NCBI GenBank assembly: GCA_028293025.1
Contig: JAQGLF010000191.1
Coordinates: 1 to 43,722, forward strand
Reading direction: 5' to 3'
DNA length: 43,722 nucleotides
Origin: Alphaproteobacteria bacterium
GTDB taxonomy: Bacteria > Pseudomonadota > Alphaproteobacteria > Sphingomonadales > Sphingomonadaceae
Under the pieces are notes generated by a model. It ran no database searches. It was not told the origin of the DNA and was given only the letters and a program-made list of their open reading frames with translations. How positions within the stretch are numbered: position 1 is the stretch's first letter; every line of letters starts with the position of its first letter. The position numbers and the translations under genes were made by a program. Below, in pieces: positions 17,500-31,926 of the stretch.

Positions 17500-18037
17500 G
17501 TCCCTTCTCCGATATCTCACTGATGCGATCAAATCTAATTGAATCACAACACGAAAGGATAGATCCGACGGCCGTTAAATCTGCTGCCTAGGTTTGGCGC
17601 CCCTCCGCTCGTGACAATCATACTATTGACGCGGGACGCAGCACAGTCAACCTCTAGGTCTCTTGCAGGAAAGTCATACGCCCCCTCAACTGGGCCGGCG
17701 ATAGGAATGGCGCGTGAAAACAACCATGTCGTTGTAACCGGAATGGATCCGTCTCGGTTTGATCATCCCTCGCAGTGCCCCTACTCTTACCCCGAAGCAT
17801 GAAAAATAGCGCCCAAGCCAATTGGTCAGCATTGCGCGCGAAGCGCTGTCAACAGCATCTCTCGCATCATCCTCCCAGTTGCGTCCACGAACCGGTTATG
17901 ACCCTTGTTCCTGAAGTGTTGATACGCTCGTTAGCAAGCGAACCCGGAATACCGCGCTCGTCAGAGGCACGGTCAGGGCGCCCGGTCTGAATGCTGTGGG
18001 TTGGCATAAATGCCGTTATCGCACTTGGCTTTGCCCT

Positions 18038-18058
18038 CCTCGAGTTTGAAACTCGAGG
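18038..18058. promoter_or_regulatory. 21-nt palindrome CCTCGAGTTTGAAACTCGAGG downstream of the recombinase
   Basis: Perfect 10-bp arms around a single G. Confidence 0.5.
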
Positions 18059-18135
18059 GGACGTCGGCGTCGCGTTGGGGCGTACAAGCGGGAGGTGACG
18101 GGAGCGTCGATCTGCCGGCCTGGCGGTCCCGCAAG

Positions 18136-19044
18136 CTACTTCTTGCTCCCGCCAAGCCGGGACAACAACGCCGCGTTCGCCAACGCGGTCCGCAAACCCA
18201 CATCACCGACGTGCGCGTATATGGCGGTCGTGGCGATATTCTCATGGCCGAGAAGGCGTTGCAGGAATCTGAGATCCACGCCGTCTTCCAAAAGCAAGGT
18301 AGCGCAGGTGTGGCGTAACATGTGCGGGGTCAGGTGGACTTCGATGCCGGCTGCCTTCGCGAAAGAGCGGAGCGACCGCCTAACGGATTGCGTCGACCAA
18401 TCCTGCCCGTTCGGGCTCAGGAGAGATTTCGCATGCTCTCGGCCAGAGAGTTTCGCAAGCAATGTGCGAAGGCGGTCGTCGACCACGAAGACGCGGCGCT
18501 CGCGCCTTCCTTTCCCGCGGACGTGTAAGCCGCCTCCTTCCGCATCGAAGTCCGTAGGACGCAGTTGAACGAGTTCCGCTACACGCAAACCCGTAGAAAT
18601 CAGCAGCAGGACGGCGGCCGCGAAAGATTTTCGGGCCAAAGATAGCTTCCGATCGAGGCAGATCGACCAAGCCGCATCGGCCAATCGGGCTGCATCCGTG
18701 CGGGTCACGCCGCGCGGCAATGATTTCGCTCGTGGAAGCTGCATCTCCAAAGCAGCGAATGGCGACCGGTCCAATGAGCCGGTCCGCACCAATTCTTTGT
18801 AGAAACCACGCAGGCAAGCCATACGCCGCCGCAAAGTTCGCGGTGCCGCGGATCGTTCGGTTGCCAGGTGCCGAGCATAAGCGAGGATCGTATCCTCCCG
18901 TCCGGCGCAAAGCTGCGCTCGCGCGAGGAAGCCGACATAGTCCCGCAAGTCGCTGGTGTAGGCCCGCACAGTATGATCCGACGGATCGCGCATCGTTTTC
19001 ATTCGGCTGACATAGGCAGCCGTCATCGTCTCCGTGAGCAGCAC
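18136..19044 (-). CDS. XerC/D-like tyrosine recombinase/integrase
   Basis: 302 aa; SAM-like N-terminus; STGLRVAELVQLRPTDFD, GKGRRERRV, HMLRHTCATLLLEDGVDLRFLQRLLGHENIATTAIYAHV (R..K..HxxR..H..Y catalytic set). Confidence 0.95.
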   Translation of the reverse strand: MLLTETMTAAYVSRMKTMRDPSDHTVRAYTSDLRDYVGFLARAQLCAGREDTILAYARHLATERSAAPRTLRRRMACLRGFYKELVRTGSLDRSPFAALEMQLPRAKSLPRGVTRTDAARLADAAWSICLDRKLSLARKSFAAAVLLLISTGLRVAELVQLRPTDFDAEGGGLHVRGKGRRERRVFVVDDRLRTLLAKLSGREHAKSLLSPNGQDWSTQSVRRSLRSFAKAAGIEVHLTPHMLRHTCATLLLEDGVDLRFLQRLLGHENIATTAIYAHVGDVGLRTALANAALLSRLGGSKK

Positions 19045-19181
19045 GTAGTTCTCCCCTCAGCCCACGGCAGCCGCGCCCCTTTGCGTACGGCGAAGTCCGT
19101 CCATACCCGATATTGTTTTCCATTTGCTTGCGGCTTTCAGGGTGGCCACCATTGGGGTACGAGAGTGCTCCAGGATAGACG

Positions 19182-19199
19182 GATAACTCAGAATTATGG
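19182..19199. repeat. Left copy of perfect 18-bp inverted repeat GATAACTCAGAATTATGG
   Basis: Exact reverse complement of 25786-25803; contains ATAA-N7-TTAT dyad. Confidence 0.9.
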
Positions 19200-22100
19200 C
19201 CGGTAGGTCGCACTGGCGGATGTCGGATCCTCACGAGAGCCGAAGCCACTCCCACCTGTTCCAAACCCAGGTTAAACGATATCTGCTCCAGATGTTCGGT
19301 GCGGATGCCGTGGTGGACCCGTCAACGCCGAACAATGCTGCCGTTCCCTATGTCGGCAATGACGGCGGGCGTGACTATGAAGTGCACGCACCGCAGGACC
19401 GGCACTCGGAACTCTTCGGCGTTCGGCTCAGGCCAGGCGCACGTTGCCTTATAGAGGCTAAATATACTCGTGCCGGAGCGATCAATTTCGCCAGGGTGTC
19501 GTCAAATCTTGCTCGCATTCAAGACGCCGAAGCGGACCATATCTTCGTCGTGACCAACGCGCACTTCGCGCCGTCCTCCCAAGTGGACGTCCACGACAAA
19601 TTTCGTGGCCTGCGCGATCGACTGTATCTCGTCGAGGGACGAGCTTTTCGACATTGGTGCGAACTGCACGCGGTGCCATGGCCTGATGCCGTGGCGATCG
19701 TCGATCCGGCCAACGAGCGGGCAAGCCAGGACGGCAACATTCTGATCGAGGCCAATTCCATCGCGGTGCGCGAAACCGGCGGTCAAATCCAAATGTTTTC
19801 GATCGCATTTCGCAACTTGGATGCCGTACCGCGAACCGTGGTCGTCTTCGCCACGTCCGACATCGAATGGCGTTTCACGGATCGCAATCCGCTCGACGGG
19901 GCGGTGAATGATCTCTTCGAGCGCCATGGCGGCGACGAGCAGGTCCCGCGCAAGACGCTCGTTATCCCGCCCTGGGGAAGCCGCGCCCTTCGCCTGTCGG
20001 GGCGCTTCCTCAACGATCAAACGCAAAGCGGATTGAATCGTGCAATGATGCACGGCGACAAGCGGGACGGCGCTCGGATCGTTGCGGAAGTCGGTCGCGA
20101 GCATATTTCTTTGTTTGCCGGTCTGCGGCCCATCCGAATAGTCTTCCGGCCACGGTTCGTCGGGCGGCAGAACATTCTCCTGCGAGACGAACTGGCACCT
20201 CTGTTCCTGGGCATCGAGCGGGGCATTCGTCCGGCGCGGCTTCGACTCGTCCATATCCGAGGCGGCGCCGGTGTCGGCAAGAGCCGCCTTGTCGATGAAA
20301 TTCTTCCGCCGATCGGCGGGGCCAGTCACCTGGTCGTCCTCGAACATACGGTAAGTTCCGACGACGGCGACGAAAAGCTGTCCAGAGGCCATTGGACCAA
20401 CGTCCGGAAACTTCTGGCCCCCCATTGCGCGGTCCACGCCGGCATCTTGGACGACATCACCGACGTTGCCAGCCTCCTGGACGTGCTTTGCGGCTCGTTC
20501 CAGCAGGTGAGCACGCTGGCGAACTGGGGAGCGATCATCGTCGTCATCGAGGATCTTCACAATGCCGGGCCGGACATCTTCGAGGCGCTGGAGCGCCTTC
20601 AGCGGCAGGATCACGCGCTGAATGTGGGCATTTTCGTCGTGCTCACGGGACGGGAAGACGATTCGTATATCAATCCGGAATACCGCCGCTTTTCGATGGA
20701 GTTGCCGGCACGCCCCGTCGGAGGAGGCGTGGAAACGCCGGTGATACGATCCCTCGGCGAACTGACGACGGCCGAAGCGAAGATGATGATCGGCGATCTT
20801 GTGGAGGGAATCCAGGATAGCGGCATCGAGCGCATTTTCAGCCTCAGCAGCGCCGTGCCCCACCACATCGTGCAATGCGTCGAATATCTTCTCGACGCCT
20901 CCCTTGTCGCGATCACGCATCGGGACACTTTGTCGATCATAGACCCGCTCACCTTCGAAAAGCGGATCGCTTCGTTGCCACGCTCCATGAACGCATTGTT
21001 TGCGACCCGCTTCGAGGTCATCGGTCGATGGCGGGGAGAAATGGGATTGGCGGCGCAGAACGCCATTCTAGCAGCGACCGTGTTCGGCACCCGATTTCCC
21101 AGAGAAGTCGGCGGCCTGATCGACGGCGTTCCCGCCGACGAAATTGTCCAGGAGCTCGAAGACAGACGATTTTTCTCCAAAGCTTCGAGCGACGATCATA
21201 TCCTTCAATGGCATCACGAGAATCTGTTGCTCTTCTTCGACACCCATCGCAGGGCCAAGGCACAGCGGCTCTGCGCGGCGGAGTCCGCCGGCCCGATCGG
21301 CGACATGTTCGTCGATAACGCAAGGCTGATCCGCCGTTCCTCGGCGCTGTGGGAAAGGCTGACCATCGCGAGCCGGGGCGACATCGCCACCTTGCTCGAC
21401 GACATGCCGCTCGCTCGACGATGCTTTTCTGAAATCTGTGACAGCGCGCTCAAGATCAGCACATTCAACACGCTGGACGCCAAGCCTGTGCACTTCCAGC
21501 ATGTCGAATATGTCGTGGCGGCGTTGCGGGACGAAAGCCCCGAACGACGAGAGGCGCTAATCTGGCGATTGATCGTGCTCAAGGCGTTCATCGGCGCGTA
21601 CTACAGGGGCCTCCGTCACGAGATAGAAGCGTATGAATACGGCATGCGCGCGTTGCCCCTTCTGGGTCTATCGGTCCAGAACATGGAACGCGGGCGGCGC
21701 TGGCTGCTCACGATCGACGCTCAGGCCCATCTCGACAGCGGCTTCATCGGCGCGGCGTTGGATCGACTGTTGCGGCTTCAGCATCTGATACAGGTCGATA
21801 TGGCGCTGGGCGGCCAGACCGACTTCGATATTCAATTCGACCTGTACAACAGCCTGCGTCTCCTCTTCATCCACACCAACTTTGTCGAGCTCGCGGACTG
21901 CAATGGCAAGCTTGCCCACGAGTATCTGCGACTATCCGGTACAAGCCAATTGGAAGCCGTCGACCTGGGCGACCTCGCCCTCTTCTTCATGCTGACGGAT
22001 CGCCGTCGCTGCATTGCGCTGCTGGAGGAAGCCCTGCGGATTGACCCCTCCCGGAACACGATGCGCCATTCGTGGCATTGCGAATTCAGCCTGCTCGCCG

Positions 22101-22744
22101 CGCTGCTACCCGATCAGGTCGGCGATACGGCGGCGCTTCAGGCGGCGGATACTCGCGCCACGGAGATCTGGCGCGACTGCGAATCGGAAGGATATCGAAG
22201 TATTCTCCCGCGCATCTACCTGTTGCGCGCGGTCATCGCCTATCTCCTGGGACGCGGCTGTCACGATCCGGCCGATCTCGAAGCCCACATGGACGCCGCG
22301 CTGGCGATCGCCGACCAGGGGCTGAACGCCTGCGAAGCCTATTCGATCGGTCAGATCACTTGGCAGATCTACAACCTCAAAGCGATTATCCATGGCCGCC
22401 GGTCGGAATGGAAAACCGCGACGGATGAGATGAAATCGGCCATCGTCAGGATGGACAATGACGGCCTGACCTTCATGGGGCGCGATGGCCTGATCAGCGT
22501 CGCGCCGCAGATCTTCGCCAACTTTATCAAACTGGCCGATTCCCATGTGCCGGACCGGGAAGCTCTAAACCTGTTGTCGAAGTTGCACGGCTTCGAAAGA
22601 TATAAGTGGAACGATGCCGCCTATCTGCGTGAAGCGAAGGCACATGCCGCGAAATATCATCATATCGTACTAGGCTGCAAGCACTGGCCCGATTGGCTAC
22701 TACTCGATGAAGTTACCGGACTTTCCATAACCTGCTGGTTTTAA
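19196..22744 (+). CDS. STAND NTPase with N-terminal PD-(D/E)xK (Mrr-like) nuclease domain and C-terminal helical repeats; Avs-like candidate defence protein
   Basis: 1182 aa; N-term GNDGGRDYEVH...CLIEAKYT (D...ExK); central FVGRQNIL...VHIRGGAGVGKSRLVDEI Walker A, AIIVVIEDLHNAGPDIFEALERL Walker B; C-terminal TPR-like helices; alternative start ATG 19220. Confidence 0.8.
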   Translation: MAGRSHWRMSDPHESRSHSHLFQTQVKRYLLQMFGADAVVDPSTPNNAAVPYVGNDGGRDYEVHAPQDRHSELFGVRLRPGARCLIEAKYTRAGAINFARVSSNLARIQDAEADHIFVVTNAHFAPSSQVDVHDKFRGLRDRLYLVEGRAFRHWCELHAVPWPDAVAIVDPANERASQDGNILIEANSIAVRETGGQIQMFSIAFRNLDAVPRTVVVFATSDIEWRFTDRNPLDGAVNDLFERHGGDEQVPRKTLVIPPWGSRALRLSGRFLNDQTQSGLNRAMMHGDKRDGARIVAEVGREHISLFAGLRPIRIVFRPRFVGRQNILLRDELAPLFLGIERGIRPARLRLVHIRGGAGVGKSRLVDEILPPIGGASHLVVLEHTVSSDDGDEKLSRGHWTNVRKLLAPHCAVHAGILDDITDVASLLDVLCGSFQQVSTLANWGAIIVVIEDLHNAGPDIFEALERLQRQDHALNVGIFVVLTGREDDSYINPEYRRFSMELPARPVGGGVETPVIRSLGELTTAEAKMMIGDLVEGIQDSGIERIFSLSSAVPHHIVQCVEYLLDASLVAITHRDTLSIIDPLTFEKRIASLPRSMNALFATRFEVIGRWRGEMGLAAQNAILAATVFGTRFPREVGGLIDGVPADEIVQELEDRRFFSKASSDDHILQWHHENLLLFFDTHRRAKAQRLCAAESAGPIGDMFVDNARLIRRSSALWERLTIASRGDIATLLDDMPLARRCFSEICDSALKISTFNTLDAKPVHFQHVEYVVAALRDESPERREALIWRLIVLKAFIGAYYRGLRHEIEAYEYGMRALPLLGLSVQNMERGRRWLLTIDAQAHLDSGFIGAALDRLLRLQHLIQVDMALGGQTDFDIQFDLYNSLRLLFIHTNFVELADCNGKLAHEYLRLSGTSQLEAVDLGDLALFFMLTDRRRCIALLEEALRIDPSRNTMRHSWHCEFSLLAALLPDQVGDTAALQAADTRATEIWRDCESEGYRSILPRIYLLRAVIAYLLGRGCHDPADLEAHMDAALAIADQGLNACEAYSIGQITWQIYNLKAIIHGRRSEWKTATDEMKSAIVRMDNDGLTFMGRDGLISVAPQIFANFIKLADSHVPDREALNLLSKLHGFERYKWNDAAYLREAKAHAAKYHHIVLGCKHWPDWLLLDEVTGLSITCWF

Positions 22745-23727
22745 GCGTTCGTGTCGGCGTTTGACCACGGGGCGGCCACGCCTTCGGCCATCGGCACCGT
22801 ACGTGTGTGGAGGCGCCGCTTGTACTCGAAATCCTCCTTGCCAAGATCCAATTCCCGCAGACCTAGGCCAGACGCACTTTTCGCCATCTCGACCAGCATC
22901 AGCAAGCCAGGAGAATAGCGCGCGAACTCCCTGTCGTAGAACGTTGTCCAATAGTGCCAGACGGTCGCCGAACGCATTCCCAGATGCATCGCAATAGGGC
23001 GTCCCGCGCAGCGGAGCACGGTCAACAGCCCCGCGAAGTCTCTGTCGTTCGTATCCAGAAGGCCATGCATCAGGCATTGCTCCCAAGGCGCCGCGAACCG
23101 ATCCGGCCAACCACTTCGTGCCCATTGCGCCGCCTTTCCCGCAAGCATTTCATCAAGCAGGTCATGGTCGTGTTCATGGGGCGAAAAGGACAATAACCCC
23201 AATTCTCGTTCGATCTTGTTCCGCCTGCGTGCGAGATCGTCCAGCAGCCGATGCCCGTTGTCACGCATGAGCGATCGGTAAGCATCGAAGCCGTTGGAGA
23301 GATCGATGACCCAGGAGACTCCGCGCCGGTGCCAATATCTCGTCCACGGGGCCTGCATGGCGAGCAGGTGATCGAACGTGAAGCTCTCAAGATCGAGCCC
23401 ACGCAAGAGCCTCTCCACCTCCCAGTCGGTATCGGGCGCGATGAGGACGCCCTGATAGTCGTTGAAGATCGAGCCAACCGGCCGTGCCTGTGCGTGCTCG
23501 CCCAGCTCGAAGGGGAATATGCCTAAAAGCCGGCCATCGCCCCGAATGAGGCCGGCAAAGACTCCGTCGGCGCACGCGCCCACCAGCCGGCTATAGCCGG
23601 GCGAGAAGAACGGACTGGAGAATGCCGGGAAGGTCGAGATCAGGCGCCGCCATTCGGCGAGGTCCGCCTCTCCAACCTCGGCGATTGCCCGGGCCTCGTA
23701 GCTTAATGTGGAGGCCGAGGACCTCAT
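22741..23727 (-). CDS. GNAT/CelD (BcsL, FemAB-like) acetyltransferase
   Basis: GEADLAEWRRLISTFPAFSSPFFSPGYSRL...HYWTTFYDREFARYSPGLLMLVEMAKSASGLGLRELDLGKEDFEYKRRL typical of GNAT_6/CelD family. Confidence 0.8.
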   Translation of the reverse strand: MRSSASTLSYEARAIAEVGEADLAEWRRLISTFPAFSSPFFSPGYSRLVGACADGVFAGLIRGDGRLLGIFPFELGEHAQARPVGSIFNDYQGVLIAPDTDWEVERLLRGLDLESFTFDHLLAMQAPWTRYWHRRGVSWVIDLSNGFDAYRSLMRDNGHRLLDDLARRRNKIERELGLLSFSPHEHDHDLLDEMLAGKAAQWARSGWPDRFAAPWEQCLMHGLLDTNDRDFAGLLTVLRCAGRPIAMHLGMRSATVWHYWTTFYDREFARYSPGLLMLVEMAKSASGLGLRELDLGKEDFEYKRRLHTRTVPMAEGVAAPWSNADTNA

Positions 23728-23744
23728 GGCTTGCGTCCGAGCCG

Positions 23745-24470
23745 TCAGATCGCGGTATCGGGCAGCGGATGAAGGCGATTGTCGCAGGTCGCGCACTGAC
23801 CGCCGGCGGCATGGCGCTTTCCCTCCATCAACAAACGACGCAGGCGGCAGAACTCTTCGGAAAACCAAATATCACGCAGCGACTGCCTGCCGGCCCAGCC
23901 CATCACCCGCTGGGCCGCGGCATCCTCGTGACACAACACGACGGCGCCGTTCTGATGAATCATCAGCATTTCGTTGGGGCCATGGCACGCCAGGCTTCCG
24001 GCATCGGCAGGGCCCATCAGGCCGCCGCGGTTGGAGATCATGAAGTCTCCGGCAAGCTGCTGCTCCTGGAAGGGCCTTGTCGGCAGCGGCCTCCCGGAGT
24101 GCCGGGTGACGAGAAAATGATCGATGCCCCCATCCAGGAGCGTGCGGTAACGATCCTCGCCAAGGAAATCGCCATTGGTGTAGAGCACGAACCAGGCATT
24201 CGGCACGAGCGGGCGGGCTCGAGCCACGAGTGCGTCCAAGCGGGGATGAAGCAGCGGCTCGTTATAGGTGTGAAAAGACAGACGGCCTGCGAAGTCCATC
24301 ACGCCAAGTTCTTCGATGATGCAGTCGAACAAATCCTCGTCCATCAGCTCTTCGGGTTTGCGGAACCACGCGTATGATTGCGGGCAATAGGAACAGCGCC
24401 GGTTGCAGTGCCGATTGACCTCGATCTCCACGACCTGGAACAGGTCTTTTGCGGGGGCCGCGTCGGTCAT
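23745..24470 (-). CDS. Radical SAM/SPASM-domain protein (BtrN-like size)
   Basis: EVNRHCNRRCSYCPQS (CxxxCxxC), GGIDHFLVTRHSG, C-terminal CHEDAAAQRVMGW...SLRDIWFSEEFCRLRRLLMEGKR...CATCDNRL SPASM-like cysteines. Confidence 0.9.
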   Translation of the reverse strand: MTDAAPAKDLFQVVEIEVNRHCNRRCSYCPQSYAWFRKPEELMDEDLFDCIIEELGVMDFAGRLSFHTYNEPLLHPRLDALVARARPLVPNAWFVLYTNGDFLGEDRYRTLLDGGIDHFLVTRHSGRPLPTRPFQEQQLAGDFMISNRGGLMGPADAGSLACHGPNEMLMIHQNGAVVLCHEDAAAQRVMGWAGRQSLRDIWFSEEFCRLRRLLMEGKRHAAGGQCATCDNRLHPLPDTAI

Positions 24471-25789
24471 TTCGATTCGCGATCGAGAACCGCAAGGCGC
24501 GAAGCCTGCGCGCGAAGTTTTTCAATCCCGGCCGCGATGGCGTCGACTTCCGGCAGGCCGCCGAGCAGGCATTCGTGGGGAAGCGCGATGCAGCGGCCCC
24601 ATGCCGCCACGGCATTCGGCAGTTGAAAGCGCTGCGGGTCGACGTGGTCCGCCAAGCCGGGCGTCCGAGCGATCAAGGGGCTTGTCAGCGGCTGGTACAG
24701 CGGGTTGCGGTCCAGAGGCAGGTCCAGGGGTGCGATGGGCAGATTCAGCTCAGCGCTCAGAGCGCGGCTGACCAGGACCGGTCCGAGACGCAGGAGCGCC
24801 TCGTCATCCATACTTAGCGGGATCTTGTAGAAGGTGCCTCCGTCCGGCTCCGCGAGGTCATCGCGGACGATCGCCATTCCGCCTATCGCATCCAGGCGGG
24901 ATGACAGTTCGCCGGCCATGGTTGCGCGATGCCTGTTCTCGCTATCCAGTCGCTGTACCCCCTCGAGCAAGATGGCAGCGTGGAACTCGGACATGCAGAG
25001 ATTGCGTCCCATGACTCCGCCGATGTCCGACAGATCGTAAAAGCCGCCGTCGAGCGGCGCGTCGCTGTAGATGCGTCCGTCGGCCCTGAATTTCTGCAGT
25101 TTATCGAAAAGCCCGGGGTCATCGGTCACGGCGATGCCGCCCTCGCCGGCCGCCAGGAGCTTGGTCTGCTGGAAGCTGAAGATCGAGATGACGCCGAAGC
25201 TGCCGATAACCCCTTCCGACAGCGATCCGCCGTGAGCCTGGGAAGCATCCTCGATCAGCAGCAGGCCGCGCTCGTCGCAAATATTCTGCAGTCGTCCGAC
25301 GTCCACTCGCGACGCATACATGTGCACTGCGAGAACAGCCCTAGTCGCCGGTGTGATGGCCGCCTCTACCGCTTCCGGCGCCATGCACAGCGATGTCGGG
25401 CAGATGTCCGCCAACACGGGAACGGCGCCGAGGTGCGCGACGGCGCTTGCGCAGGCCACCCATGTCAGGCCGGGGACGATAACCTCATCGCCGGGTCCGA
25501 TCCCGACGGCCTGCAGAGCGATCGTCAGGGCGGCGGATCCAGAGCTGCACGGCACGCCGAACGCGCGCCTTACGCTATGGGCGAACGCAGTACCGAACCG
25601 TCTTTCGTAGCTGTCTGGGTGGCGGCTGCGGGCGGTTATCGTCCATCGGGAGGAATGGAGGATCTCCAATATCGTCCTCTGCGCTAATACTCCGGCCCGG
25701 GGCCAAGCAGGCCACTGCTTTTCATGAACCGGATCACCCCCCAGAAGTGCGAGCGCAGAAGCCTCGGCACCTTCGTTCCCCATGCCCAT
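24467..25789 (-). CDS. DegT/DnrJ/EryC1/StrS-family aminotransferase
   Basis: VPCSSGSAALTIALQAVGIGPGDEVIVPGLTWVACASAV, LIEDASQAHGG, FSFQQTKLLAAGEGG (PLP lysine); ATGA overlap with the radical SAM gene. Confidence 0.92.
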   Translation of the reverse strand: MGMGNEGAEASALALLGGDPVHEKQWPAWPRAGVLAQRTILEILHSSRWTITARSRHPDSYERRFGTAFAHSVRRAFGVPCSSGSAALTIALQAVGIGPGDEVIVPGLTWVACASAVAHLGAVPVLADICPTSLCMAPEAVEAAITPATRAVLAVHMYASRVDVGRLQNICDERGLLLIEDASQAHGGSLSEGVIGSFGVISIFSFQQTKLLAAGEGGIAVTDDPGLFDKLQKFRADGRIYSDAPLDGGFYDLSDIGGVMGRNLCMSEFHAAILLEGVQRLDSENRHRATMAGELSSRLDAIGGMAIVRDDLAEPDGGTFYKIPLSMDDEALLRLGPVLVSRALSAELNLPIAPLDLPLDRNPLYQPLTSPLIARTPGLADHVDPQRFQLPNAVAAWGRCIALPHECLLGGLPEVDAIAAGIEKLRAQASRLAVLDRESK

Positions 25790-25803
25790 AATTCTGAGTT
25801 ATC
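25786..25803. repeat. Right copy of perfect 18-bp inverted repeat CCATAATTCTGAGTTATC
   Basis: Reverse complement of 19182-19199; overlaps the aminotransferase start codon. Confidence 0.9.
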
Positions 25804-25981: not shown

Positions 25982-27170
25982 ATGGCTAGAACGCGAACAG
26001 CTGCTTGGCCGTCTTCCAGCGCCGCCCCTGGGGACGCTCCGGACTGGTATGTCGACGAAGTCTTCCGCAATGCCCTCCGCCGAGTCATCGCGGTCCTCAA
26101 CCGCAGGGAAGTGAGCGTGCGCGCGGATCGACCTCAGTCGAGCCGACGCCGAGGTCGCGGCGGCCTTCGAGCGCGGCGGGCTCGACGCGGAGCTGATTCA
26201 ATTCAACATCGAGGGCTATGACGTCTTCGCCCGTTCGGCCGAGCGTCTCGCCGAGCATCATTTCTATACCAACGCCCGCTTCGTCACGCGCGACGGCCGT
26301 CGGGTAGCCGTGTTCAAGGTTCCGCGCGTGTTCCTGGACTGGGGGTATCACAGTCTGCAGCGGCCTGCCGCGGATCCGCTCGTTCAGGGCGACTTCCCGC
26401 GCGGGCAGAACGATCCAGCGTATGTGAAGCATTGCGCGACCAACTATCTGGTCAAGAACTTCTGGCACAATTTCGTGCACGGTGAGATCCAGGGAATCGA
26501 TCAGAATAGTTACGGAGCCTTCAGGGGGCTGCCGCGCGAAGACTCCGATTTCGAGGCGGACCACGTCGCTAACCTTCTCACGCTCGCGAGCTACGGGATC
26601 CCGATCCGTTATCAGGGCCGTCCCAATGAGGAGTATGGTCCTCGCGTCGAGGCCATCTTCACGCGAAATCGCTGCAATCAGGTCTTCGCCAGGCGTGCCC
26701 GGCACCGCCCAGCAGATTGGGCTTCCGCGACCGCCGAAGAGCGCTGGGCGGATTTCGAATGGCGCTTCTGTCGCGGCGTTGGCAATCGGGTCAGCACCAC
26801 CCTGATCGCCGCCCGCCTCGCCTCCCCTTCGGTCAAAATATTCCTGGGAGGGGATGTCCGATTCTCGCCGGCGCGGGGGACGCGATGGCGCCATGGCAAC
26901 GTCCTGGTGGAAGTGGCCGGCCGGCGGCTCGCCACCCCTTATGCCGCCTATGTGCCCGACGACGAATGGCGGGCCTACCGCGACGGCACACAGGTACCCC
27001 CGGAACGGGTGAGTGTCATTCGGCGCCGAAGGGCGGAGCGGGAGGCGGAAATCGCCGGCTGGGTTCGCGGCGCGTACGGCGGGCTGATCAAGGGCAGCGC
27101 GACGTTGCGCAAGAGCATCGGCCTGCAGCTCCAGGCGCTGGAAACTCGAATCGCCGTGGACCTACTCTAG
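25982..27170 (+). pseudogene. Uncharacterised about 395-aa protein gene with an apparent frameshift near 26112-26126
   Basis: ATG 25982 frame reads DWYVDEVFRNALRRVIAVLNRREVSV; the downstream frame reads ARIDLSRADAEVAAAFERGGLDAELIQFNIEGYDVFARSAERLAEHHFYTNARFVTRDGRRVAVFKVPRVFLDWGY... to 27170. Confidence 0.6.
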
Positions 27171-27599
27171 CGGGGCCCCGTACGAAGCGGCGGCCAATCG
27201 GCGCAAAAACTATGATTGAATGTCCTTGCTCGTCATCTTGAAGACGACCGAACGTGCCTGCAGCTGGAGAGGCAAACCCCAAGAGTTTCAAAGATGGGAC
27301 TCGAACTCTGCGGACGCTTTCTCGATTAGCCGTTTCCCAGTACGTGTACCCGTAGGGCAAAGACTGATAATCCCTGATTATCGCTCATCAGGCCTCGCCG
27401 ACGGCAGGTCAGGGGGCACAGGGCGTTAGCGGCACGACATATCGCCGTTACGACCTCGGCGTGCCCTGGATGCCTCATTAATGCATCCATTCTATGAGGC
27501 ACGCACGCGGCAGCGTTGGCTAATCGAGGCCCGCTCGGCAGGAGCAGAAGAGCTGCTTGCGGCCACGAGCGAACGCTCCCAAGTTCGTGAAAATCGGTT

Positions 27600-28141: not shown

Positions 28142-29272
28142 GTGCCCACAACAGTCTCAGCGACGCGCGATACGGGCGTTCCCGAGGCGGAAGCGATGCT
28201 CGCCGACCTAGAGGGGCTAGATGCCGCCGCTGACGTCGGAGATGCTGGTGTCGAGCTCCTCCTGCCCTCGCAATCGACCGCTATTCTTGCAGACGCGTGG
28301 CTGGGCATCGCGACCGGCTCCTGCGCCGCGACCAGGCCGACTGCAGTGGTTGCCCGAGGTTTTCTACATTTAGACGCCATGAGCCAGTTCTTTTCGACAC
28401 CAGCGGGCCTTGCCGCGCTTCAGACTGCCCGCTCGATCGTGCCCGAAGGTGCCAAAAGCGATCCTGTCGACGCCGACCGACTCGTGATGCAGCTGATCGC
28501 GCGCGACGCTGGACTAGTGGAGACCCGGGGCGGCGGACAGATCCTATTCGAGGCCGACCCCGACTTCCCGGTGGCTTCGATCCTGCGAGCCTCGACGCCG
28601 ATCGCGAATGAACCGGCCGAGCGGCGGCGCATGTTCACGCAGCTGGTCCTGAACCTCCGGCGCAGGGTTGAGATCGGTGCGCTCCGACGCATGATCGATC
28701 CGGTTTCCGAAGGGCCTGGAGGAGCAGTCGGACGCTTCCTCTTCGAGCTCCACGAAAACGGACTCGAGCACGGCAGCCGCGACGGTCAGGGTCGTAAGAT
28801 CCGGGGCACGCGAATGCTGCGTCTCCGTAAGCACGTGTCTAACCGGCCAGATGAATTAATCGCACGTCATGGTGGTGTAGCCGAGCTGAAGGCGTATCTA
28901 GAGCGACTGAACACTACGGCCCTTGTCGAAGCGTCCATTTCAGACTTCGGCCTCGGCGTGGTCGACGGCTTCTTAGCGTCGCCTGCCGGATTGAGTCATG
29001 CCGGACGGGACCGCCGCGAGTTGCTGGACTCGCTGCTGTTCGAGCGGCTTAGTTCGAAGGGTACTGACCGAGCATCAGGCGTCGGGATCCAGCGGGCGCT
29101 TAGAGCCGCCGCGCAAATGCAGGCGTTCGTGTCGGTGCGCACCGCCGAATTCTGGCTGGTTGCATCCTACTTCGACGGCGGTCGCGCGTTCCGAATGGGC
29201 GACGTCTCGGGTCCGGAGCGACGCGCTAAAATCCGGGGGACGCACTGGCAAATCCTATGGCCGCAGCCATGA
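28142..29272 (+). CDS. GHKL (histidine-kinase-like) ATPase-domain protein
   Basis: GTG start with gggagc upstream; N-box FLFELHENGLEHGSRDG, G1-like ISDFGLGVVDGF, G2-like SSKGTDRASGVGIQRALRAA. Confidence 0.75.
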   Translation: MPTTVSATRDTGVPEAEAMLADLEGLDAAADVGDAGVELLLPSQSTAILADAWLGIATGSCAATRPTAVVARGFLHLDAMSQFFSTPAGLAALQTARSIVPEGAKSDPVDADRLVMQLIARDAGLVETRGGGQILFEADPDFPVASILRASTPIANEPAERRRMFTQLVLNLRRRVEIGALRRMIDPVSEGPGGAVGRFLFELHENGLEHGSRDGQGRKIRGTRMLRLRKHVSNRPDELIARHGGVAELKAYLERLNTTALVEASISDFGLGVVDGFLASPAGLSHAGRDRRELLDSLLFERLSSKGTDRASGVGIQRALRAAAQMQAFVSVRTAEFWLVASYFDGGRAFRMGDVSGPERRAKIRGTHWQILWPQP

Positions 29273-29289
29273 GCGCCAGATCCTAGTCG

Positions 29290-31638
29290 ATGCATGTGTT
29301 CACCGCCGACTTGCAGGCTGGCGACGGGACCATTCCGGTCCTCGTCGCGCAACACTCCGCGGGCCAATCGCTGGAAGCGTTGTTCGAAGCGCTCTATACC
29401 GATTACGCGGAGGCCCGGCTCGGAGCTGCATGGGTGGTCCTCAGGCCCGACGTGCGCGACCGCTTCCCTGCCAGTTCCATCACGTCGGCGATCGCACCGA
29501 CCGACGACTCGGACCTGTCCGACAGCCCATTCTTGACAGCCTTGCGTGAAGCGCGAGCCGACCCGGAGATCGCCTTCGCGCGCCTTCTAGACACCCCGGT
29601 GGTAGTCCTGCACGCCGATGGCGACGAGCTGCGCGTCTCCGGCAATGTCAACCCCGCCGCCCCAGATGTGTCTTTCGCCGAGAGAGGGGTGGACGAGGGG
29701 GCGATCCTCTCGGCGCTTCGCGCCAAAGAGATGTCCTGCCTAGTCGAGCGCTCGCGCGCCCTCCTCCCGGTCATACCGGGAAGCTTTTACCGCGCGCCCT
29801 CCAATCGTCTCGCTCGCGCCTTCCTCAGAGTTGGTAACATCCAGTACTCGCGGCACGCCATTGACGCAGTCTGCTTCTGGCTGCTGCCCTACACGCACGG
29901 GTGCGAAGCGGTTCTGGTCGACACTTGGTCTATCTCGTCAATAGCTTTTGACTTGGCGAGCCTGATGGCTGCGCTGCGCGGAGGCTCGCCGATACCGGTT
30001 GAGATGCTCAGCCAATACCAGGACCGGTCTCCTGAGCGCATGGCGCTCGCGGCCGAGGCGCTCGATCGGATTTCGGCCGAGTTGGGTGCCGGGGCGAGCG
30101 CAGCCGAGGACGGACCTCCGGTGAAGGTCGCCTGTATCCTTAGCGCAACCCATTCAGGGTCGCTTGTAGAGGTCCTTCAGGGGTTGGTCGAGATGAGCGA
30201 GTTCGGACTCGAACTCTCGTTCGTGGCCCTATTTCAGATGGGCACCGACCTTGGAATTCCGTCGCTGAGCGACATATCCGACACGCCAGAGTTCCGGCCG
30301 CTCACGCCGGGAGAGGAGGAGAGTCGGACGGTTGTTGACATTGATCCGCGATCCTACTTTCCGCTTAGTCACGCCGACGTAGAACTATGCGTCCGTGTCC
30401 GCCACGCGCAGGCGGCCAAGGCGTTCATGGACGTCTTCAGCGGCAAGGACGTAATCTCGGTGCATCGCGACCACAAGACAGACGGTCCAACCCGGCACCA
30501 AGCATTCCATGTCGATACGGAGCGCCTCGTCGCCACTGACGCGTTCCGCGAGGGCACGGCGGCGAAGCTCCTGGCTTTGGTCCCGCACCCGTCCCTGATT
30601 GTGACGCCCGCTCATGCTGCGGCGCACGCGCTTGGCGCCTTCGCGTCCGCCGTGCTGAGCGGCAACGGTCCCGTTCCCCATTACGAGCACTCGACGCTAT
30701 CGCTGAGGGGCACCGAGCCCGAGCGAGCCTCGGATGAGGCGCTGCGCGCGATGCTGCTCGAACTTGGACCAGAGGACGCAATCCTGGTTTTGGACGACGC
30801 CTTCATCACCGGGTCCCGGCTCAGTGGGTACCAAAATCGGCTGCGCGCCATGAGCTGCCGCGCGCGAGTGCACTACCACGTCGCTGTCGCCAGGCCGAGC
30901 GATCCGGCTGCTTGGAACCAGGCGAGGAGCATGTTGAGCTGGCGGGGGCCCGCGGATCGAAGCTCTTTCCCAACTAACACTGTGGATGCGACCTTCGAGA
31001 TCTGCTTGCCGAATTGGCAGGAGCGTGAGTGCCCATGGTGCGCGGAGCAGCGACTTTACGACGCGATCGTCGCCCGGGGACAGGTGCTACCATCGTTCTT
31101 CGCGGCCCGCAGAGCTCGCTTGGTGGAAGGCCGCGAGCGCGGCCTGACCATGGACGCCGCGCTGCAGGACGGCTGCACGCCTCCGATGCGCCTCGAACGC
31201 TCCTCGATTTTCGCGCCAGAAGGCGCCAGTCAGGCCGAAACGTTTGCCGCCCTTGCCTCAGCGTTCCAGATTATGCGCACGGTTGAGGAGGCCGATCTGC
31301 CGCGATTGGGTCCGCGTCGGCACCCGCTCTCGACCGTGCTGAAATCGACGGAGTACCTCCGAGACACCTACACCGATTCCATCTTGCGCGCCGCATTCCT
31401 CCGCGGAGCCGCGCCGGACGAACTCGTCTACGCCGACGCAGCGCATGATTGGGAGCGGCAATCGTTGGTGCACGCGATCGTATCGGACCAAGCCGCGCAC
31501 GTAAGCGATGTCGCTCACGAGCTCGTCTTGGCCGCGGCACTCGGTAAAGGTGATCTGTCCGAGGCAGCTCTTGAGGCGTTAAACCAACACACCGGCCGGC
31601 GGGAGGCAGTCGCAGTCTTGGGCGTCACGCGACGCTGA
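29290..31638 (+). CDS. Large phosphoribosyltransferase-domain protein
   Basis: 782 aa; DAILVLDDAFITGSRLSGYQNRLRAMSCRARVHYHVAVARPS resembles the PRPP-binding loop; upstream LIVTPAHAAAHALGAFASAVLSG; CPWCAEQRLYDAIVARG CxxC. Confidence 0.7.
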   Translation: MHVFTADLQAGDGTIPVLVAQHSAGQSLEALFEALYTDYAEARLGAAWVVLRPDVRDRFPASSITSAIAPTDDSDLSDSPFLTALREARADPEIAFARLLDTPVVVLHADGDELRVSGNVNPAAPDVSFAERGVDEGAILSALRAKEMSCLVERSRALLPVIPGSFYRAPSNRLARAFLRVGNIQYSRHAIDAVCFWLLPYTHGCEAVLVDTWSISSIAFDLASLMAALRGGSPIPVEMLSQYQDRSPERMALAAEALDRISAELGAGASAAEDGPPVKVACILSATHSGSLVEVLQGLVEMSEFGLELSFVALFQMGTDLGIPSLSDISDTPEFRPLTPGEEESRTVVDIDPRSYFPLSHADVELCVRVRHAQAAKAFMDVFSGKDVISVHRDHKTDGPTRHQAFHVDTERLVATDAFREGTAAKLLALVPHPSLIVTPAHAAAHALGAFASAVLSGNGPVPHYEHSTLSLRGTEPERASDEALRAMLLELGPEDAILVLDDAFITGSRLSGYQNRLRAMSCRARVHYHVAVARPSDPAAWNQARSMLSWRGPADRSSFPTNTVDATFEICLPNWQERECPWCAEQRLYDAIVARGQVLPSFFAARRARLVEGRERGLTMDAALQDGCTPPMRLERSSIFAPEGASQAETFAALASAFQIMRTVEEADLPRLGPRRHPLSTVLKSTEYLRDTYTDSILRAAFLRGAAPDELVYADAAHDWERQSLVHAIVSDQAAHVSDVAHELVLAAALGKGDLSEAALEALNQHTGRREAVAVLGVTRR

Positions 31639-31675: not shown

Positions 31676-31859
31676 CTTTGGGGACACTTTTGGCAGGCGG
31701 AGATTCTGCGCCTCAAAGCGCCTCGGCGGTGCGGATAGATAGTCTCCTGGTCCCAAGCGGTCAGGACAGCGCCTGCAAGCCGCGGAAATGTGGGCGCTAT
31801 TTCGGCCCTATCGGAGAGACCAAGAAACCTGCCAAGTCATTGAAATCGCTGGCGCGCCC
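31676..31859. repeat. att-like repeat copy C adjoining tRNA-Arg 3' end
   Basis: gcgcctgcaagccgcggaaat...gcgctatttcggccctatcggagagac...aagtcattgaaatcgctggcgcgcc, similar to copies A and B. Confidence 0.75.
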
Positions 31860-31926
31860 GGCAGGATTCGAACCTGCGACCCCAAGCTTAGAAGGCTCGT
31901 GCTCTGTCCAACTGAGCTACGGGCGC
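31850..31926 (-). tRNA. tRNA-Arg (anticodon TCT), CCA encoded
   Basis: Reverse complement GCGCCCGTAGCTCAGTTGGACAGAGCACGAGCCTTCTAAGCTTGGGGTCGCAGGTTCGAATCCTGCCGGGCGCGCCA folds as cloverleaf; 7-bp acceptor GCGCCCG/CGGGCGC, anticodon loop CTTCTAA. Confidence 0.95.

Follow-up and report, generated by a model that had tools for sequence, protein, structure and literature searches.

The question raised by this locus is whether two short inverted sequences bounding a 6.6-kb block of genes are recombination sites, through which a neighbouring recombinase flips or exchanges the block. In the window (the whole 43,722-nt stretch of DNA analysed here), GATAACTCAGAATTATGG occupies positions 19182-19199 on the plus strand and recurs as an exact inverted copy at 25786-25803 on the minus strand, with two opposed gene units between them. 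The exact 18-bp inverted repeat of the original prediction is real and also unique in the genome, as no third copy was found, even at two mismatches, in its 389 contigs (3.36 Mb, about 88% complete). Dinucleotide shuffles gave an expectation of 0.01 matches at up to three mismatches, and none of 100 shuffles contained two. At two mismatches, the 18-mer matched three other genomes as single sites, which we took as chance; a 17-mer search of viral contigs returned 13 single matches, about the chance number for so large a collection by our estimate. As had been proposed, each copy overlaps the start codon of an inward-facing gene, and both do so in the same register, with positions 15-17 forming the ATG at 19196 of a STAND NTPase and the ATG at 25789 of a DegT-family enzyme, respectively. 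In the latter, a second ATG two codons on is a possible start.

The left copy is separated by 137 bp from the GTG start codon (at 19044) of a gene encoding a 302-aa Xer-like tyrosine recombinase (18136-19044, minus strand), which reads away from the cassette and contains a Phage_integrase domain (6.4e-34) and a SAM-like domain. A tyrosine recombinase thus lies just outside the left copy, where a XerC/D-like enzyme had been noted. Its scores fall below the NCBIfam cut-offs for XerC (182.1 bits, cut-off 335.15), XerD (165.7 bits, cut-off 329.6) and the integron integrase TIGR02249 (107.9, cut-off 265). The suggested likeness of the repeat to dif sites stood in part: the inner ATAA and TTAT are common to both, whereas the spacer is 7 bp rather than 6 bp long and the XerD-type outer arm is missing, so the site is dif-like but not dif. 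The two copies are treated here as candidate recombination sites (core GATAA-CTCAGAA-TTAT), and sites of this kind are conserved in relatives. The first 16 bp of the 18-mer probably make up the functional core: in the Sphingomonad relatives, one end of a cassette frequently disagrees with the other at bases 17-18, and no conservation of outer arms was seen beyond these 16 bp. The divergent intergenic region at 19045-19181 forms the recombinase-side flank and is presumed, by its position, to drive the proximal unit. A promoter scan found no sigma-70-like promoter in this left flank and one weak candidate, directed outwards, at the right site.

Between the sites, the left unit encodes the STAND-type NTPase (19196-22744, plus strand; 1182 aa), whose AAA_16 match (1.6e-6) is below the Pfam cut-off and whose N-terminal GGRD...EAK motif, noted by eye, suggests a PD-(D/E)XK-like nuclease domain. 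The right unit consists, in order, of a DegT/DnrJ/EryC1 aminotransferase (24467-25789, minus strand; 440 aa, DegT_DnrJ_EryC1 1.8e-69), a radical SAM/SPASM enzyme (23745-24470, minus strand; 241 aa, Radical_SAM 2.9e-12, SPASM 3.5e-10) and a GNAT acetyltransferase (22741-23868, minus strand; Acetyltransf_6 4.3e-32), and it converges on the left unit with a 4-bp overlap at 22741-22744. When listed from a TTG, the GNAT open reading frame shares 124 nt with the radical SAM gene, and its true start is probably an internal ATG. The description of this block as a defence module was not supported, since PADLOC gave no family match for the STAND protein; the radical SAM protein obtained only weak partial viperin-like matches. 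No relatives of the STAND protein were found by peptide patterns in the genome collection, a search of 300 genomes of the order gave a single weak 112-aa match, and PDB sequence searches with its N-terminus and with the 320-aa partner protein of a related cassette (see below) returned nothing useful. Because such relatives are scarce, the window cargo gave no comparative signal, which came instead from the recombinase. Just to the right of the cassette lies a long open frame (26115-27250, plus strand), in which a 286-aa open reading frame (26310-27170) has no Pfam or NCBIfam match. Further on, two adjacent open reading frames of 376 and 782 aa (28142-31638) match the PADLOC candidate pair PDC-M65A/B (2.9e-4 and 2.9e-13); they adjoin a tRNA-Arg gene (31850-31926, minus strand) and may belong to a second accessory island.

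A close homologue of the recombinase was present in one of 300 other genomes of the family (G381, 63% identity). Beside it, GATAACTCGGGATTATCG and its inverted partner GATAACTCGGGATTATGG lie 1.7 kb apart and enclose a methyltransferase and a 320-aa protein, which are convergent and each start at their own site. A scan of the genome collection with both recombinases yielded four more Sphingomonad-type loci (L027-L030, 55-70%) as well as beta- and gammaproteobacterial and Caldithrix loci (33-39%), and all these groups share the consensus GATAACTNNNNATTAT beside the recombinase, mostly as inverted pairs. Plasmid searches added loci from Methylobacterium, Phaeobacter, Ruegeria, Paenibacillus and Streptococcus, whose inverted repeats of 17-39 bp are built on an ATAA-N7-TTAT core. 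A recombinase adjoining two convergent genes with an inverted site at either end was thus the layout found in Sphingomonas, Betaproteobacteria, alphaproteobacterial plasmids, Paenibacillus and Streptococcus, with GATAACTNNNNATTAT, in which 7 bp separate ATAA from TTAT, as the site in most relatives. In total, modules bounded by inversely oriented sites were found in the window and at 20 other loci. Of 16 cassettes checked, 15 have two convergent genes whose starts each fall no more than about 30 nt from the first base of the site, L178 being the less clear case. In most betaproteobacterial members, the site contains the TAA stop codon of the recombinase, which places the proximal gene immediately behind the recombinase gene. 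An alignment of the flanks of the Sphingomonad loci showed little conserved sequence.

Relatives carrying such sites around other gene sets beside the same recombinase family, named in the original prediction as a check, therefore exist. The opposite outcome, in which the 18-mer would be merely an operator before unrelated genes, was not what we found: genomes of the order without the recombinase hold lone matches at chance level. Across 401 genomes of the order, the motif gave scattered single matches outside the recombinase carriers, at about the rate of a reversed control, and close inverted pairs were confined to two recombinase carriers, G000 and G250 (the G250 coordinates are those of the record behind L028). 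Searches for relatives of the recombinase found none in phages or in IMG/VR, and a family-wide search around Paraburkholderia added no new species. On the recombinase tree, the site-bearing members cluster, with 4 site-label changes compared with a mean of 16 after shuffling. The Streptococcus and Paenibacillus recombinases form long branches whose placement is unsure; what ties them to the family is the core of their sites, their layout and the cassette types they have in common with it. The constant linkage of recombinase and sites, together with the clade pattern of the site label, points to the adjacent recombinase as the likely catalyst of flips. Evidence on the other side is that some recombinases of the same clade, namely L039 and those of Bradyrhizobium, Yoonia, Marinovum and Roseobacter (L183 and L192-L194), have no detectable site nearby, and that Sphingomonas L029 has a single site; apart from L039, these may be either decayed loci or loci with diverged sites.

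Strand exchange by tyrosine recombinases demands identity over the overlap region, and the spacers followed this rule. The eight cassettes of the Sphingomonad group carry seven different 7-bp spacers, yet the spacer is identical at both ends in all eight, an agreement reached in 10 of 200,000 permutations (p ~5e-5). Between cassettes, the spacers differ beside the same recombinase family, even within one genome. Measurements on pdif sites have likewise shown that recombining partners have identical or nearly identical spacers (PMC13141974).

The original prediction also held that recombination between the inverted sites would flip the segment, and this was supported in relatives: one plasmid record shows it directly, and four assemblies give indirect evidence. 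The record of the Streptococcus equinus FDAARGOS_251 plasmid (CP020439.2) still includes about 51 kb of circular overlap that was left untrimmed, in which positions 1-51,259 equal 185,363-236,564. Apart from a cassette of 2,069 bp, the two copies run in the same order; the cassette is reversed in one relative to the other, and the two crossovers fall within the 39-bp repeat. The untrimmed overlap has thus preserved both orientations of the cassette, which means that one culture held both forms. In addition, the assemblies of four isolates (Pseudothauera nasutitermitis, Paraburkholderia solisilvae, Burkholderia sp. WAC0059 and Ralstonia sp. A12) are broken exactly at the sites: the cassette forms a separate contig of 3.4-3.5 kb bounded by the site, and each flank contig stops there or overshoots it by roughly one k-mer. 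Since a repeat of about 20 bp should not otherwise break an assembly, these contigs indicate that both joins were probably present. Opposite orientations were also seen between loci. The methyltransferase is proximal to the recombinase in L023 and L028 and distal in L030 (57-70% identity), and among orthologous cassettes the ATP-grasp ligase is proximal in L034 and L182 and distal in L191. Three near-identical Phaeobacter plasmids share one and the same orientation. The window contig contains a single orientation, and inversion in its organism is predicted from the behaviour of these relatives.

Cassettes were also found to be replaced, which, like the cassette-specific spacer, goes beyond what had been predicted. 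The megaplasmids of S. salivarius and S. equinus have this recombinase locus in common, and its flanks are 97-99% identical as far as the site, but between these flanks lie three different cassettes: a polyprenyl synthetase with a 330-aa protein in NU10 and FDAARGOS_251, an aminotransferase with a STAND/TPR protein in ICDC2, and a methyltransferase with a 327-aa protein in SALI-10 and LAB813. The route of replacement may be either site-specific or homologous recombination, and the window member is presumably open to such replacement as well. Two cassettes stand in a row in L027 and L030. Direct adjacency to the recombinase is not required of a cassette, since L028 has a second one (17885-19557; a CDP-alcohol phosphatidyltransferase-like and a membrane-like protein) at a distance of 7 kb downstream.

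Across the relatives, one gene of the pair usually encodes an enzyme, including methyltransferases, spermidine-synthase-like proteins, CDP-alcohol phosphatidyltransferases, ATP-grasp/D-Ala-D-Ala-ligase-like proteins, glycosyltransferases and aminotransferases, and its partner is a STAND/TPR ATPase or a protein of no assigned function. The SALI-10 cassette of Streptococcus (L200, 3159-4852) is homologous to the Sphingomonad methyltransferase cassette (L023, L028 and L030), with 33% and 23% identity for the two proteins (E values 1e-36 and 6e-17), indicating that this cassette type crossed phyla as a pair. Judged by this homology, the methyltransferase and its 320-aa partner may form an old, functionally coupled pair. 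PADLOC returned two weak partial matches for the relatives' cargo; because the STAND proteins matched no family beyond one weak partial hit, a defence role of the cassettes is only a guess.

Taken together, these data make it very probable that the two 18-mers of the window serve the dedicated recombinase beside them as paired core sites; this enzyme would flip or exchange the 6.6-kb cassette and thereby swap the pairing of units and flanks. The recombinase would bind the near-palindromic arms GATAA...TTAT around the asymmetric 7-bp spacer (CTCAGAA in the window), and strand exchange over the matching spacers of the two inverted cores would flip the cassette. Because the ATG lies inside the site, each flip would leave both reading frames intact. 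The unit behind the recombinase-side flank would change between the STAND NTPase and the DegT-radical SAM-GNAT operon, with the other unit placed behind the opposite flank, and flipping would thus be expected to alter expression by promoter swapping. Exchange at both sites with compatible sites would replace the cassette by another, a natural cassette exchange, and such exchange through an inverted pair would make the locus a docking place for two-gene cartridges. We infer that the system of the window is active.

An alternative that we consider possible, though not the probable one, is that the sites mainly serve to capture and exchange gene pairs, in an integron- or pdif-like manner, with inversion as a by-product of little regulatory effect because both flanks transcribe. 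The replaced S. salivarius cassettes between constant flanks, the tandem cassettes and the cassette types common to different phyla all fit this reading, as do the -10-like sequences directed toward the cassette, seen by eye in both S. salivarius flanks. However, replacement could also stem from homologous recombination in the flanks, and the betaproteobacterial arrangement, with the proximal gene directly after the recombinase, makes it unlikely that the two positions are equivalent. Far less credible is that the 18-mer is a shared operator, or a promoter or leaderless-start element, co-regulating both units without recombination: each copy is near-palindromic and keeps the same register at the start codon, but the genome has no further copies, both orientations occur in CP020439.2, and the centre is identical within a cassette and differs between cassettes even in one genome, a pair specificity that a shared operator would not give. 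We see next to no chance that the segment is a transposon-like unit or the repeat a chance match, for despite perfect terminal inverted repeats around a cargo block there is no target duplication outside them (...AGACG versus ...CGAAC) and no transposase inside the window cassette, 0.01 matches were expected by chance, and relatives have the same site around unrelated cargo. The operator, transposon and chance readings were accordingly rejected on the pair-specific spacers, the two orientations in a relative and the comparative data.

Inverted sites worked by their own recombinase would constitute a platform that both flips and swaps whole gene pairs, and its cargo resembles enzyme-plus-sensor units kept together across phyla. 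Flipping would account for the assembly breaks that recur at such loci, and its effect is directly testable in the Streptococcus, Paraburkholderia and Ralstonia isolates that already show the platform. Engineered recombinase-mediated cassette exchange would have its natural counterpart in such a system, in which one small recombinase works on short inverted sites addressed by their spacers. The platform is apparently widespread and undescribed: our literature search found no description of such a system, which is weak evidence because preprints and most subscription journals lay outside its coverage.

Several known systems share parts of this behaviour. In the invertible G segment of phage Mu, the serine recombinase Gin acts on fixed tail-fibre cargo, the gene sets are opposed with the site at the starts of their reading frames, and flipping chooses what joins an outside expression signal. 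The window cassette is similar in holding two opposed gene sets with sites at their starts, whereas its family uses a tyrosine recombinase and widely varying, exchangeable cargo. In integrons, the tyrosine recombinase IntI lies beside exchangeable cassettes, at times in tandem arrays, each as a rule comprising one gene flanked by attC sites in direct repeat; the present family likewise has a tyrosine recombinase beside exchangeable cassettes, but its inverted sites bound convergent pairs and its recombinase falls below the IntI cut-off. The chromosomal XerC/XerD system acts on a 28-bp dif with 11-bp arms and a 6-bp spacer, unlike the ATAA-7 bp-TTAT sites described here. The pdif (dif) modules of Acinetobacter plasmids are also bounded by inversely oriented Xer-type sites with inner ATAA/TTAT, and in both systems the spacers of recombining sites are identical or nearly so (PMC13141974). 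However, pdif sites have 11-bp XerC and XerD arms and a 6-bp spacer and are served by the host XerCD (PMC13141974), whereas in the window family the recombinase is a dedicated one encoded next to the sites, the spacer measures 7 bp, the core is shorter with different arms, and the sites lie at the start codons of convergent pairs. In Firmicutes, tyrosine recombinases acting on inverted repeats generate mixed populations by shuffling gene parts, as in hsdS shuffling by PsrA (PMC7096588), or by flipping a short control element, as in the CwpV switch (PMC2784873); in the present family, by contrast, whole two-unit cassettes flip and are replaced. The family thus acts like a DNA-inversion switch and like pdif modules, but for each of the XerCD-dif, pdif and integron systems it lacks defining features that were tested. 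There is a reasonable likelihood that a separate class is warranted, and we tentatively propose, at a little under even confidence, that a dedicated Xer-like recombinase, occurring in Pseudomonadota, Bacillota and probably Calditrichota, maintains convergent gene pairs as cartridges, in the typical case an enzyme with a STAND or uncharacterised partner, and inverts and trades them through inverted sites that carry or abut start codons and whose spacers would serve as the address deciding which sites can recombine.
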